Shown: positions 2,987 through 7,087, numbered from the stretch's first letter. The stretch: 46,605 bases of DNA from Gemmatimonadota bacterium (GCA_020350425.1 CP070716.1:2030768-2077372), one strand, 5' to 3'. Notes: generated from the letters alone by a model not told the origin. Numbers and translations: made by a program.

Positions 2987-3412
2987 TCACCGCCACCGTA
3001 GCCGCCCCAGCCGCGAGGTCGTGAGCGATTCCGCAGCGCTGCCGCGCCGCAGCACGAGCGTAGTGTTGGCTCCGCCGAACCCGAGCCCATTGGGGTGGAT
3101 ACGGATGATCGAGCGGCTGGCGGTGAGATCGACGCCGTGCCGTGAGGGTCCCGCACGCCCCAACAACACGGCCTCGCTGCCGTCCTCCAGCACCACCCAT
3201 AGGGAGTCCCCGCGAAACTCCACGCGCACGCGGGATGCACGGTAGATCGCCTCGAGCCGTGCCAGCTCGTAAAAGGCCGCCACTTCCGCGGCCGATCGGC
3301 GCACCGCCGCCCGGTCAGACCGAGCACCGATGCGCGGGGCTGCGACGGCCACCAGGATCCCGACGATGGCGAGAATCGCAGCAATTTCGGGCAGAGTTAC
3401 ACCTCGTCGCAC
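2987..3412 (-). CDS. type II/IV pseudopilin (GspH/FimT-like)
   Basis: The N-terminus is a class III prepilin leader: a short basic stretch RRG, the cleavage Gly, then VTLPE with Glu at +5, followed by the hydrophobic stalk helix IAAILAIVGILVAVAAP. The rest is a small beta-rich domain (VRVEFRGDSLWVVLEDGSEAVLL) as in GspH/FimT minor pseudopilins. I chose GTG at 3412 because it gives a normal short leader; a TTG at 3442 would add ten residues including Asp and His. Prepilin peptidase would cut after the Gly. No other pilus or secretion gene is nearby. It converges on the propeller gene, with 7 nt between. Confidence 0.82.
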   Translation of the reverse strand: MRRGVTLPEIAAILAIVGILVAVAAPRIGARSDRAAVRRSAAEVAAFYELARLEAIYRASRVRVEFRGDSLWVVLEDGSEAVLLGRAGPSRHGVDLTASRSIIRIHPNGLGFGGANTTLVLRRGSAAESLTTSRLGRLRWR

Positions 3413-3525
3413 ACCGTAATCGATGTCACAGTGCCGACCCAAACCACCGTCCCAATTTACGTTCGCCGGGACGTATAACCGCCGAGAGCACTGGGTGAGA
3501 GGCTGCCGCTGCGTCGCTGCCGTGG

Positions 3526-3603: not shown

Positions 3604-4878
3604 GTGATCCCCCACACCCTTCCCGATTCACAGACTCCGGCAAAGGGTCTGCACGAGCCTTTTCTCCAGCGCGCCGCCGACGCCGAAGCTGATCCGTCCA
3701 GCAGCCACGCTCTGGGCGGGTTTCTCACCATGCGGCTGGTCGACCAGTTCGCCCACGACCGCTTGCCACCGCAACTTGCCGCCGTGGCGTACCAGATTCG
3801 GGCCACCCGCGACTTCCTGCGCGGCCTGCATCCCCCGACCGTGGAGGGCAATCACCTGCTCGAGATCGTGCGGGTGGCCGAGGGCGTACGCGATGACCGC
3901 AAGGTCCGGCTGCTGTGGCCGCCGCTCCTGGCATTCGCCTTCTGGCTCGAGAATCAGCTACGCCTGGCGGAGGCGCTCGACGTGCTGGCGACGGGTCTCA
4001 GCCTCAGCCACGGGGAGGTCGGAGAGGAGGAGGTCGCGGCCCACCTCCAGCTCGGCCGTGTGCTGCGACTCTCGGGGCGATTCCCCGAAGCGGAGGAGTC
4101 CTACGCCGAGGCGGGGCGACTCGCTTCACGCATCGGTGACGCGCATTCGGCCCTGTTGAGCCGCATCGGTCATGCCAAGGTCGTCTACTATCGCGGAAAC
4201 CTCCCCGAGTCCGAGCGTCTGCTGCTGTGGGTCCTGAAGGATGCCCGCCGCGCCGCCGACGCCGACGCCGAAGCCCGCGCCTGTCACGACCTGGCGACGA
4301 CCCATCACCTGATGGGCCGTCTGGCGAGCGCGGTTCAACTCGCGTTCGAGGCGTTCCGCGCATACGAGGAGCAGCCCAGGCGTACGCGCGCACTTTCGGA
4401 CGTCGGCGTGTTCCTCAAGGAACTCGGCCACTACTCGGCGGCGAAGCAGGCCCTGCTGCTGGCGCTCCATCGAGACGCACCGCCCGAGTCGCAGGCGCGC
4501 ACGGTCGTCGAGCTGCTCGACCTGGCGGCGCTGATGCAGGACCGCATCTCCTTCGAGCGCTGGCGGCGGGAGATCACCGGAGTGTATGACCGACTGCCGC
4601 CCGACGAGCGGGCGGAGTTCGAGATCAAGCTGGGATACGGCTTGGCGTGCTTCGAGCGCCGCGCCGAGGGAGAGAAGCACTTGCGCCGGGCCATCGCGCT
4701 CGCCGAGGAGGGTGGGCTGGGAGAGCAGGCCTTCCGGGCAGAAGCGCTGCTGCGAGACGTGCAGGAGAACTGCGGTAAGCCGTGGCTTTCCGCAGTCCCC
4801 GCTGCAGAGGTCGAGCCCGCCCCCGAGCTGCGGACTACGATCGAGTCACTGGAGGTGCTAGCGAGCGAAGCCCGCTAG
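3604..4878 (+). CDS. TPR protein, Rap-like in size, no DNA-binding domain
   Basis: A 424-residue soluble alpha-helical protein. From about residue 130 to 390 it has successive TPR-like helix pairs, for example AHLQLGRVLRLSGRFPEAEESYAEAGRLA, SALLSRIGHAKVVYYRGNLPESERLL, ACHDLATTHHLMGRLASAVQLAFEAF and KLGYGLACFERRAEGEKHLRRAIALA. Residues 40-125 form a separate helical region. There is no signal peptide and no helix-turn-helix, so it would act through protein or peptide binding. The GTG at 3604 has GGGAGG 11 nt upstream; an internal ATG at 3730 is an alternative. The gene faces a small exported-peptide gene whose stop lies 26 nt downstream. Function not known. Confidence 0.85.
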   Translation: MIPHTLPDSQTPAKGLHEPFLQRAADAEADPSSSHALGGFLTMRLVDQFAHDRLPPQLAAVAYQIRATRDFLRGLHPPTVEGNHLLEIVRVAEGVRDDRKVRLLWPPLLAFAFWLENQLRLAEALDVLATGLSLSHGEVGEEEVAAHLQLGRVLRLSGRFPEAEESYAEAGRLASRIGDAHSALLSRIGHAKVVYYRGNLPESERLLLWVLKDARRAADADAEARACHDLATTHHLMGRLASAVQLAFEAFRAYEEQPRRTRALSDVGVFLKELGHYSAAKQALLLALHRDAPPESQARTVVELLDLAALMQDRISFERWRREITGVYDRLPPDERAEFEIKLGYGLACFERRAEGEKHLRRAIALAEEGGLGEQAFRAEALLRDVQENCGKPWLSAVPAAEVEPAPELRTTIESLEVLASEAR

Positions 4879-4903
4879 CCCCGGGGCGAGCCCGGACCGG
4901 CTA

Positions 4904-5068
4904 TCAGGTGCCGGAGCCCTGCGTGCCCGATGAGCCGTCGCAGGTGCCGGAGCCCTGTGTGCCGCTGTCGGTGCAGAGGTTCGGCGCCGTTGCGTCGGCG
5001 CAGGCCGATGCCCCTAGGGCAAGCGAGGCGAGAAGAGCCAAAGCGAAATACCGTACCCGACGGGACAT
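4904..5068 (-). CDS. small exported peptide with duplicated SGTQGSGT motif
   Basis: A 54-residue reading frame starting at ATG 5068 behind a strong GGAGGG ribosome site. The N-terminus is a clear export signal: RRVR, then a hydrophobic core (YFALALLASLALGA) and ASAC, either a relaxed lipobox (Cys23) or a signal peptidase I site. The mature part is about 32 residues with two further Cys (32 and 43), each opening a repeat: CTDSGTQGSGT (32-42) and CDGSSGTQGSGT (43-54), so the protein ends exactly at the end of the second repeat. The gene converges with the TPR gene and diverges from the AraC-type regulator. It could be a signalling pro-peptide or a small structural lipoprotein; I infer no activity beyond export. 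Confidence 0.72.
   Translation of the reverse strand: MSRRVRYFALALLASLALGASACADATAPNLCTDSGTQGSGTCDGSSGTQGSGT
4905..4963. repeat. 36-bp-period direct repeat inside the peptide gene
   Basis: Two 23-nt copies start at 4905 and 4941 (CAGGTGCCGGAGCCCTG followed by C or T, then GTGCC) and differ at one base. They encode the repeated GTQGSGT of the small peptide, read on the minus strand. The third-position difference is silent. Confidence 0.85.
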
Positions 5069-5149
5069 TGCACCCTCCTGTGGCTGTGAGATGGGGCGGC
5101 GGCACAGGCCGTCGCATCAAAATCAAGGTGGGTTGAGGGGCCGGATAGG

Positions 5150-5190
5150 CCCTTTTGGGGACTTTATGTGCCCTTATTGGGACATTTATG
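5150..5190. promoter_or_regulatory. tandem 21-bp-spaced operator-like repeats over a start codon
   Basis: Copy one, CCCTTTTGGGGACTTTATG (5150-5168), and copy two, CCCTTATTGGGACATTTATG (5171-5190), are imperfect direct repeats spaced 21 bp, two helical turns. Each contains a CCC/GGG inverted element. The second copy covers the ribosome-binding region and the ATG (5188) of the AraC-type regulator. The block lies in the 119-nt divergent region shared with the peptide gene. Autoregulation by the adjacent regulator is inference. Confidence 0.5.
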
Positions 5191-6009
5191 CTGGTTCTGG
5201 CGGCGGTTCCTAGGACGTTCTCGGCGCAACTTCTCCGGGCTGCCGGCCACCGGTTCCGCTTCGTGGCCGCGTCCTCCTGGAGCGAGGTGCTCGAGACAAT
5301 CCTGAGGGAGCCACTCGAGTTGGCCGTGCTGGACCCGGGGCTAGAGGGGATCCCGCGCACGCAGGAGATTGAGCGGATCCGGGTGCTGTTTCCCTCGCTG
5401 CCCCTGGTGCTGTACACGAAGCTGACGCCGGCGATGGTCCCCGTGCTGCTGCGCCTGGGGCGCGTAGGTGTGAGGGAGGTGGTGGTGTCGGGCCACGACG
5501 ACCACCCGGCCCGGCTCAGCGACATCCTGGTGCACGAGGCGGCGCGCTCGCTGTCGCGGCGTTTGGTGGAGGAGATCGAGGACCTGCTCGAGGGCTGCCC
5601 GGGGCAACTGCGCTGGGCGCTTGAGACGGTGGTGCGGGAGCCGGCATCGTTCCACACGGTGCGGGATCTGGCCGAGCGGGCCCGCATGGATCGGCGCACC
5701 TGTGCCCGGTGGTTCACAAAGGCGAATCTGCCGCCGCCCAGTGTCGTGCTCATGGTGTTCCGCGTCGTGTATGCCCATCGCTTGTTGCAGGATCCGGGCT
5801 ACACCGTCGAGGACGTGGCCGCAAAACTAGGATACTCAAAAGCCCGCTCATTTGGACAGAACGTGAAAGAGGTGTTCGGCATGACCCCGGGGGAGCTCCG
5901 GGTATCGCTGACTCCCGACGAGGCCATCCAGATCGTGCGAGAGAAGTTCTTCCGGAAACGGATCGAAAGCGAAGCCGAACCACTCAAGGCGTTGCAAAAC
6001 GTTTCATGA
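5188..6009 (+). CDS. AraC-type HTH regulator with receiver-like N-terminus
   Basis: The C-terminal third (about residues 165-250) is an AraC/XylS double helix-turn-helix: TVRDLAERARMDRRTCARWF, then the second HTH YTVEDVAAKLGYSKARSFGQNVKEVFGMTPGELR. The first 120 residues look like a degenerate receiver fold: strands FRFVAA and LELAVLDPG, the latter with an Asp at the position of the phospho-acceptor, then LPLVLYTKLT. The paired acidic residues of true receivers are not evident. I chose ATG 5188; the frame is open back to a TTG at 5155. It overlaps the next response regulator (ATGA) and heads a three-regulator operon. The divergent neighbour is the exported peptide gene. Confidence 0.85.
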   Translation: MLVLAAVPRTFSAQLLRAAGHRFRFVAASSWSEVLETILREPLELAVLDPGLEGIPRTQEIERIRVLFPSLPLVLYTKLTPAMVPVLLRLGRVGVREVVVSGHDDHPARLSDILVHEAARSLSRRLVEEIEDLLEGCPGQLRWALETVVREPASFHTVRDLAERARMDRRTCARWFTKANLPPPSVVLMVFRVVYAHRLLQDPGYTVEDVAAKLGYSKARSFGQNVKEVFGMTPGELRVSLTPDEAIQIVREKFFRKRIESEAEPLKALQNVS

Positions 6010-6407
6010 CAGCGTTCACCTTTCTCGTCGTCGATGACGAGCCCGGCATCAGACGGGTGCTCTCCCGGGCTCTTACCCGGATCGGCCACTCCGTGTTGCT
6101 GGCCACGACCGGCGAGGAGGCGTGCCAGGTGCTCGAGTCGAGCCGGGTCGACGTCGTGATGATGGACCTCCGCATGCCGAGTATGTCAGGACAGACGCTC
6201 TACCACGTCATCGCATCACGGTGGCCCGACCTGGTTGGGCGCGTGGTCGTCATGAGCGGTGATCCGGAGGCAACGGACCACGAGAGCTGGCTGGGCCTGC
6301 ACGATCTGCCGGTTTTGCCCAAGCCCTTCGATATCGCCCAACTGGTCGACCTCGTCACACGGTTCACCGAGAGCCCGCGACGCGAAGCGAACGGACCACA
6401 GCGATGA
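6006..6407 (+). CDS. single-domain response regulator
   Basis: A 133-residue CheY-like receiver with no output domain. The acid pair is at Asp10-Asp11 (FLVVDDEPG), the phospho-acceptor is Asp54 in VVMMDLRMP, a Ser follows in the VVVMSGD strand, and the conserved Lys is in LPVLPKPF. It is coupled to the AraC-type gene upstream and the MerR-type gene downstream by ATGA overlaps. It could receive phosphate from an unlinked histidine kinase or titrate phosphate. The output is unknown. Confidence 0.9.
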   Translation: MTAFTFLVVDDEPGIRRVLSRALTRIGHSVLLATTGEEACQVLESSRVDVVMMDLRMPSMSGQTLYHVIASRWPDLVGRVVVMSGDPEATDHESWLGLHDLPVLPKPFDIAQLVDLVTRFTESPRREANGPQR

Positions 6408-7087
6408 GCGTACCGGGGGGACACGCGGGGGATCCCTTGTTCAACCTGCGCGAGTACCGCCGGCTCGCACCGTGGAGCCTGCGTGACCTGGCCACACTCG
6501 CGGCGGCGATCCTCGACGCCTCGGCCGTACGTCCCATCAATGCTGCCGCCAGTGCGCACCCAAGCGAGCGAACCATCCGCTTCTACGTCACGCGCCACCT
6601 GGTGACGCCCCCAGAGGGGAGAGGCACGGCCGCCACCTATTCCTACCGCCACCTGTTACAGGTGCTGGCCATCAAGCAACGGCAGATGGAGGGCGCGACG
6701 CTGGCAGACATCTCGGCAGAGCTGGCCGAGACGGCGGGCGATGCGCTGGAGCGGCGCGTTGCGGCGGCCCTGGGGCCCAACCTGCCTGCCCCCGGCCAGC
6801 TTCCGCTCACCGCCCAGGACCCTCCGCCTCGCGGGCGGGCCGGACAGGCCCTGCGGCCAGTGGCGCCGCGAGGCGACGAGCCGGGCGACGCCCGAGGGGT
6901 GAGCGCGTGGCACCGGGTGCGTATCGGCGACGGTATCGAGCTGCACCTGCGGGAGGACCACCCGCTGATTCAGAGCCACCTGGAGGCCCAGGCCGCCGAC
7001 GCGGTGCGGCTGGCCATCGGACGGATCGCAGCACAGCTGCGGTCGCTGCCAGGAAGCCTGAAGCCGCGCGAAAGCCAACGAGCGTAG
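6404..7087 (+). CDS. MerR-type transcriptional regulator
   Basis: Residues about 50-115 form a MerR-type winged helix: SERTIRFYVTRHLVTPPEGRG, a wing with YSYRHLLQVLAIKQRQMEG, and ATLADISAEL. The start of this domain lies 50 residues in, after a helical extension. A Pro/Gly-rich linker leads to a C-terminal segment, AWHRVRIGDGIELHLREDHPL, then a helix. No metal-binding Cys are seen, so it is not a classical metal sensor. It overlaps the response regulator upstream, and the LemA gene follows after about 50 nt on the same strand, so it may control the LemA/M48 genes. Confidence 0.82.
   Translation: MSVPGGHAGDPLFNLREYRRLAPWSLRDLATLAAAILDASAVRPINAAASAHPSERTIRFYVTRHLVTPPEGRGTAATYSYRHLLQVLAIKQRQMEGATLADISAELAETAGDALERRVAAALGPNLPAPGQLPLTAQDPPPRGRAGQALRPVAPRGDEPGDARGVSAWHRVRIGDGIELHLREDHPLIQSHLEAQAADAVRLAIGRIAAQLRSLPGSLKPRESQRA

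Follow-up and report, generated by a model that had tools for sequence, protein, structure and literature searches.

A candidate peptide-pheromone system of Gemmatimonadota combining a lipoprotein-like propeptide, a tetratricopeptide-repeat protein and a pseudo-receiver/AraC regulator

We analysed a unit of three adjacent genes in a 46,605-nucleotide stretch of the genome of a Gemmatimonadota bacterium (GCA_020350425.1, CP070716.1:2030768-2077372; hereinafter the window), which code for a tetratricopeptide-repeat (TPR) protein, a small exported peptide and a regulator with an AraC-type helix-turn-helix (HTH) domain. Judged from sequence and predicted folds, the unit is likely to be a peptide-pheromone system of the phylum, with a lipoprotein-type propeptide as the source of the signal, a separate TPR protein as receptor and a separate pseudo-receiver/AraC protein as output. 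An earlier note, made from the window's sequence, had described a TPR protein without a DNA-binding domain, a convergent gene for a 54-aa exported peptide and a divergent regulator with an AraC HTH, and had proposed that they sense a peptide; all three genes are as it described them. In window coordinates, the unit comprises the following features:

3604..4878, plus strand: TPR protein of 424 aa, the proposed cytoplasmic peptide receptor (Pfam TPR_12)
4904..5068, minus strand: lipoprotein-like exported propeptide of 54 aa, MSRRVRYFALALLASLALGASACADATAPNLCTDSGTQGSGTCDGSSGTQGSGT (same place in 82 of 99 TPR loci)
5000..5068, minus strand: leader of the propeptide, with a positive start, a hydrophobic core and a conserved Cys at residue 23 in a lipobox-like GASA-C (alignment of 82 peptides)
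4943..4966, minus strand: tail motif SGTQGSGT at residues 35-42, the inner of two copies (exact repeat)
4907..4930, minus strand: tail motif SGTQGSGT at residues 47-54, the C-terminal of two copies (exact repeat)
5153..5186, plus strand: direct repeat TTTTGGGGAC-N11-TTATTGGGAC with a 21-bp period, candidate AraC-type operator (alignment of the divergent regions between peptide gene and regulator)
5188..6009, plus strand: regulator of 273 aa, degenerate receiver domain followed by an AraC-type HTH (HTH_18, E=5.7e-15)

A small exported-peptide gene is conserved at the 3′ end of the TPR gene

We searched 298 Gemmatimonadota genomes for homologues of the TPR protein and recovered them in 119. Sixty fetched regions, oriented on the TPR gene, form with the window a set of 61 loci, and a second set holds 40 further, more distant regions; the majority of the genomes compared are metagenome-assembled genomes (MAGs), and the window's own genome is a single contig of 2.87 Mb. 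Peptide genes were called by a fixed rule that demands an antisense open reading frame (ORF) of 33-100 aa with an ATG start, whose stop lies between -30 and +150 nt from the end of the TPR gene, and which has a charged start, a hydrophobic core and a Cys box, as scored by a home-made hydrophobicity and charge rule rather than by SignalP. Such a signal-peptide-plus-Cys ORF accompanies 82 of 99 TPR homologues; at the 3′ ends of other long ORFs in the same loci the same rule recovered none in 444, and on the sense strand it likewise recovered none. The stop of the window's peptide gene lies 25 nt beyond that of the convergent TPR gene, and the layout is nearly constant over the 60 regions: the TPR gene reads to the right, the peptide gene to the left at its 3′ end, and the regulator again to the right. 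The TPR-peptide pair is also present in most of the 40 more distant regions, and the best-scoring peptide homologues from an independent search adjoin a TPR gene.

The peptide frame is intact in relatives and evolves under purifying selection, the nonsynonymous rate of difference (pN) being below the synonymous one (pS) in 223 of 223 peptide pairs with at least 55% identity (means 0.25 vs 0.57). A Shine-Dalgarno-like site precedes the ORF in 49 of 67 loci as against 5% in shuffled sequences; no consensus sigma-70 promoter or terminator was detected between positions 4850 and 5230. The earlier note had made its proposal vulnerable to a trio that did not recur, a peptide frame broken in relatives, or TPR homologues always without the small gene. 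Of the 61 loci, 56 have a regulator after the TPR gene, and the trio thus recurs across the phylum; the frame holds; and roughly one TPR homologue in six is without a recognisable peptide gene, the others having one. Since most of the tests proposed came out in favour of a peptide-signalling module and none of these refuting outcomes occurred, such a module is the best explanation of the unit.

Two close relatives have no peptide ORF (L069, G157:C110; L085, G205:C45). In L069 only about 11 nt separate the TPR stop from the start of the regulator, and the whole peptide gene and control region are therefore missing. The absence of peptides from some loci, such as L069, may result from assembly faults, and both L069 and L085 may reflect either deletion or faulty assembly. 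In genus g33 (L142, L143) the regulator lies directly 3′ of the TPR gene and a peptide homologue comes after it (G023:C5:296594-296737, minus strand); gene order can therefore shift while the genes stay close.

The propeptide combines a lipobox-like leader with a repeated tail motif

A lipobox has a small residue just before its Cys, at -1, and in most cases a Leu at -3. In 112 peptides the residue at -1 is Ala in 96 and Gly in 14, and position -3 is often Ala or Ser (Ala in 41, Leu in 19); the window's box is of the AxxAC type. The Cys is followed by a [TS][GA]P-type motif in 98 of the 112. This conserved Cys suggests a lipoprotein-type propeptide handled by signal peptidase II, an enzyme encoded in the window's genome.

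The tail carries a striking C-terminal motif of 5-9 aa that is present in 1-6 copies across the peptides. For example, QGSNN occurs once, twice or three times in related genomes, and other tails, from distant regions, display six copies of HTLGSGN, four of HGPDAGS, three of HNPDSGN and two of HTPDSGS. Within the window's own group both copies change jointly, TQGSGT of the window having as counterparts HQGSGT, WQGSGT, IQGSGT and SVQNSGA, each present twice in the respective relative. An inner copy matching the C-terminal 7-mer at 5 or more of 7 positions was found in 26 of 95 testable tails as against 0.45 expected; in 21 of these 26 the copies are identical at 7/7, and virtually no other of 130 peptides provides as good a match. 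The repeated motif reported in the earlier note is thus real and changes in concert within each peptide. At the nucleotide level the window's two SGTQGSGT copies show 4 differences at 6.7 synonymous sites, and the exact copies pooled show 79 differences at 122 synonymous sites, a sum covering repeats picked for amino-acid identity, for which the 26/95 count, allowing mismatches, is the less biased measure. Because so many synonymous sites differ, the exact copies must be old, their protein sequence having been kept equal by selection. In aligned positions the tail was not seen to evolve faster than the leader (pN/pS 0.38 vs 0.37); the tails differ mostly by repeat number and by motif changes that do not align. 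Copies kept equal in this way are what one would expect of a propeptide that carries the same signal more than once. As to composition, many members have a short core with paired cysteines, and several tails consist of little besides Gly, Ser, Asn, Thr, His, Pro and Asp.

The TPR protein is a predicted solenoid of generic TPR similarity next to a degenerate receiver/AraC regulator

The AlphaFold2 (AF2) model of the TPR protein is an all-helical TPR solenoid (pLDDT, the model's local confidence score, 93.3), and Pfam finds in it generic TPR families and no DNA-binding domain. Among natural proteins of solved structure, LGN/GPSM2 ranks first in both profile and Foldseek searches; Rap and NprR come behind it in Foldseek (E ~1e-4, TM-scores 0.41-0.48), and Rap, NprR and PlcR are absent among the best 60 of 141 profile matches to Protein Data Bank (PDB) sequences. 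Because LGN/GPSM2 outranks Rap and NprR, the TPR protein is no homologue of RRNPP receptors beyond being a TPR protein. A further weak NCBIfam match, to the cyclophane RiPP (ribosomally synthesized and post-translationally modified peptide) protein HaaT (E=1.4e-5), spans a generic TPR stretch. By TPR numbering, some conserved polar residues (R155, H228, R262 and D266) are predicted to face the groove or to lie near it. Helix-A and helix-B positions are equally conserved (entropy 2.38 vs 2.40), and we rejected a contrast between them as a sign of a conserved groove. In family f5 (L141, L147, L149-L153) the TPR homologues reach about 600 aa, some 180 aa of which form an additional N-terminal region; this region gave no Pfam match in the two homologues scanned (L141, L149), and the f5 receptor may therefore hold a second sensing domain.

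The regulator is modelled with comparable confidence (AF2, pLDDT 93). Its N-terminus is predicted to adopt a (beta-alpha)5 fold, for which Foldseek recovers the receivers of FixJ, HupR and Spo0F, and its C-terminus holds an AraC/XylS-type double HTH, for which the DNA-binding domains of AdpA (also a Foldseek match) and GadX are structural counterparts. Compared with canonical response regulators, the N-terminal domain keeps Asp49 and Thr77; the acidic pair of beta-1 is replaced by Ala-Ala, and there is no conserved Lys after beta-5. Canonical phosphorylation is accordingly unlikely, the metal-binding acidic pair and the beta-5 Lys being lost. We place the start at ATG 5188, because relatives begin with MLVLAAVP or its equivalent and the conserved direct repeat fills 5153-5186; on the same two grounds we rejected a start at TTG 5155.

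A 21-bp direct repeat lies between the peptide gene and the regulator

Across 67 loci, the best direct repeat of the peptide-regulator region has a period of exactly 21 bp in 44, and its halves agree at 10 or more of 12 positions in 57% of loci as against 3% in shuffled sequences. The repeated motif drifts (GGGAC, TGCGACA, TGTGYCA) while the spacing is constant; two helix turns fit the tandem sites of AraC-type proteins. In the window the element occupies the stretch some 85-118 bp upstream of the start codon of the peptide gene and borders on the regulator's ATG, a position that suggests activation of the peptide gene together with self-control of the regulator. The element pattern has 1-9 matches per genome in six genomes searched, that is, 0-8 extra sites, and the reversed pattern has none in the same six. 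Extra copies were seen near response-regulator or PAS/histidine-kinase genes (G000:C1:83504-83537, L231; also L229, L233 and L236). Such copies, in the window's genome and in relatives, make a small regulon possible.

Three relatives encode many TPR paralogues, over half of those tested with a peptide gene

Three relatives encode 19 (in a 6.8-Mb genome), 14 and 22 TPR paralogues, and at those tested the rule recovered peptides in 12 of 18, 7 of 12 and 14 of 21 cases, respectively. The tails of a single genome include YVIGSGN, VTFGSGS, FGLGSGN and LLGGSGN, each present twice, among others, so that the copies are alike within a peptide and different between peptides. Orthologous TPR pairs in the f6 genomes were not seen to share their motif, which differs between species at about 40-60% TPR identity. 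On balance, we lean towards a phylum-wide peptide language in Gram-negative bacteria, in which pairs of a receptor and a lipoprotein-derived pheromone would have been co-duplicated up to about 20 times per genome, each with its own repeated motif and coupled through a degenerate receiver-AraC regulator instead of an HTH on the receptor, and which would have originated separately from RRNPP.

Occurrence beyond the phylum was probed with the regulator pattern in named genomes and in viral contigs, and in phage records; the TPR alignment has no conserved stretches suited to scanning named genomes, and the regulator alignment was used instead. Close relatives of the window's regulator in the named genomes are from Gemmatimonadales and other Gemmatimonadota MAGs, plus one contig binned as Rokuibacteriota (L181, QHSL01000142.1), which has the same regulator at 53% identity together with a peptide gene; the Rokuibacteriota label is probably a binning error, the other explanation being horizontal transfer. 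Viral contigs held no relative of the regulator and phage records none of the TPR protein, and we rejected carriage of the unit by phages on these grounds.

A proposed mechanism and its relation to known systems

The small gene would code for a propeptide that Sec exports and whose conserved Cys probably bears a lipid anchor. Proteolysis could then cut the C-terminal motif free in one copy or several (in the window approximately TQGSGT), and the released short peptide, which might report cell density, would re-enter the cell, probably via an OppA-type permease. Inside, the cytoplasmic TPR protein encoded by the neighbouring gene would bind it in its groove and, by contact, act differently on the degenerate-receiver/AraC regulator and perhaps also on a stand-alone receiver encoded next to that regulator. 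The regulator, in turn, is expected to bind the 21-bp direct repeat and to adjust transcription of the peptide gene and of its own gene, constituting a feedback. If this is right, signalling through TPR receptors and peptides arose or spread beyond Gram-positive bacteria and can cope with an outer membrane, its counterpart here being conserved and rich in paralogues in a little-studied phylum of soil bacteria; TQGSGT, YVIGSGN, VTFGSGS and others are candidate signals ready for synthesis.

Rap proteins bind receiver domains (RapH-Spo0F, PDB 3q15). The unit resembles the Rap-Phr systems of Bacillota (RapH-Spo0F, RapF-ComA) in three ways: its TPR protein is separate, comparable in size and devoid of a DNA-binding domain; a gene for a short exported peptide adjoins it; and the proposed partner has a receiver-like domain. 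The unit differs from them in its Gram-negative phylum, its convergent gene order, its lipoprotein-like propeptide, a proposed partner in which a degenerate receiver is fused to an AraC HTH, and a TPR similarity that is generic. Unlike in PlcR, PrgX, Rgg and NprR, the output HTH resides on a separate protein. Enterococcal sex pheromones are cut from a lipoprotein signal sequence; the candidate signal here would likewise derive from a lipoprotein precursor, although from a repeated C-terminal tail. LGN/GPSM2 (PDB 3sf4), the closest solved natural protein, binds extended peptides in its groove; it is, however, a eukaryotic cell-polarity scaffold, and the similarity is generic to TPR repeats.

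The RRNPP family has been described in Firmicutes and their mobile elements, and the RRNPP_detector scan covered those and viruses only (PMC10075063). Its propeptides carry 1-4 pheromone repeats, and Rap-Phr-type propeptides can likewise hold a repeated pheromone (PMC11343458). Published screening looks for a small Sec propeptide and a TPR receptor of 250-500 aa encoded as direct neighbours (PMC10075063), a combination that the unit appears to share with RRNPP/RRNPPA systems. Its layout agrees with four of the five published criteria and, going by the home-made leader rule, with the one on Sec (PMC10075063): the 424-aa receptor falls in the range of about 250-500 aa with tandem TPRs (some relatives reach about 600 aa), and the 54-aa propeptide falls in the range of 10-100 aa and is adjacent, 25 nt away. 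Sequence homology to known RRNPP receptors beyond generic TPR similarity is something that the TPR protein does not display. By sequence, then, the unit is no member of RRNPP; by analogy, it would work like signalling of the Rap/NprR type. We found no paper joining Gemmatimonadota with RRNPP or peptide pheromones in a search without preprints and most subscription papers.

Weighing the alternative explanations

Several observations weigh against a pheromone system. A lipoprotein would need to be cut free and to pass the outer membrane, and the locus has no linked gene for a dedicated protease or importer. About one in six TPR homologues has no recognisable peptide ORF, including the close relatives L069 and L085. 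The fold match of the TPR protein to Rap and NprR is what any TPR solenoid gives. To our knowledge, classic RRNPP propeptides are not lipoproteins, and the window's peptide looks like one. Hence, the peptide-sensing module of the earlier note is supported in part: conservation, selection and repeats speak for it, the peptide departs from classic RRNPP propeptides in its lipoprotein-like look, and peptide binding, re-import and signal transfer to the AraC protein are steps that it would require. The note saw no import system, which holds for the window; elsewhere in the genome two OppA-like binding proteins (PF00496) are encoded, which only indicate that an importer could exist.

The main rival takes the peptide for an envelope lipoprotein, for example a ligand tethered for a receptor at the surface or in the periplasm, or an envelope-stress lipoprotein. 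The TPR and AraC proteins would do no more than control the expression of this lipoprotein, whose repeats would serve multivalent binding outside the cell. The lipobox-like Cys after Ala or Gly, the signal peptidase II gene, the short, polar, Gly/Ser/Asn-rich tail and the divergent arrangement of peptide gene and regulator around a common operator-like element all agree with it. Nevertheless, we hold it to be rather unlikely, as it leaves unexplained why a cytoplasmic TPR protein is so constantly paired with the peptide, and the many paralogues, each with its own motif in copies alike only within one peptide, are better understood as bearing specificity tags. It is quite improbable that the peptide is instead RiPP-like, the precursor of a bacteriocin or other modified natural product whose processing or regulation involves the TPR protein: a short core with paired cysteines in many members and the weak HaaT match speak for this; however, that match covers generic TPR sequence, RiPPs do not usually have a Sec/lipoprotein leader, several tails hold little but the seven residues named above, and the neighbours examined included no gene for a modifying enzyme, a dedicated exporter or immunity. 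We give almost no credence to chance neighbourhood, that is, an unrelated small lipoprotein gene or a spurious frame between the TPR gene and the regulator. Small ORFs are easily over-called in GC-rich DNA, and the ORF list of the window does contain many spurious frames; yet 82/99 stands against 0/444, the peptide is under purifying selection, and the pairing is kept across several families of the class and among paralogues within one genome. The control and the selection led us to reject a chance small ORF.

Neighbouring genes

The following genes flank the unit:

6006..6407, plus strand: stand-alone receiver with the signature residues DD, D, S and K (Pfam Response_reg, E=1.1e-19)
6404..7087, plus strand: MerR-type HTH protein, final gene of the regulator run (Pfam MerR_1, E=4.3e-8)
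2987..3442, minus strand: GspH-like pseudopilin, divergent from the TPR gene (Pfam GspH, E=1.4e-8)

Downstream of the TPR gene, a receiver match is present in 52 and a MerR-type protein in 32 of the 61 loci. We did not find the direct-repeat element convincing in the divergent region between the GspH-like and TPR genes (mean best mismatches 4.1 vs 4.6 in shuffled sequences). The GspH-like gene precedes the TPR gene in 31 of the 61 loci and is frequent in family f1 (the window and L061-L101), a neighbourhood from which a role of the output in pili or in the uptake of DNA might be suspected.

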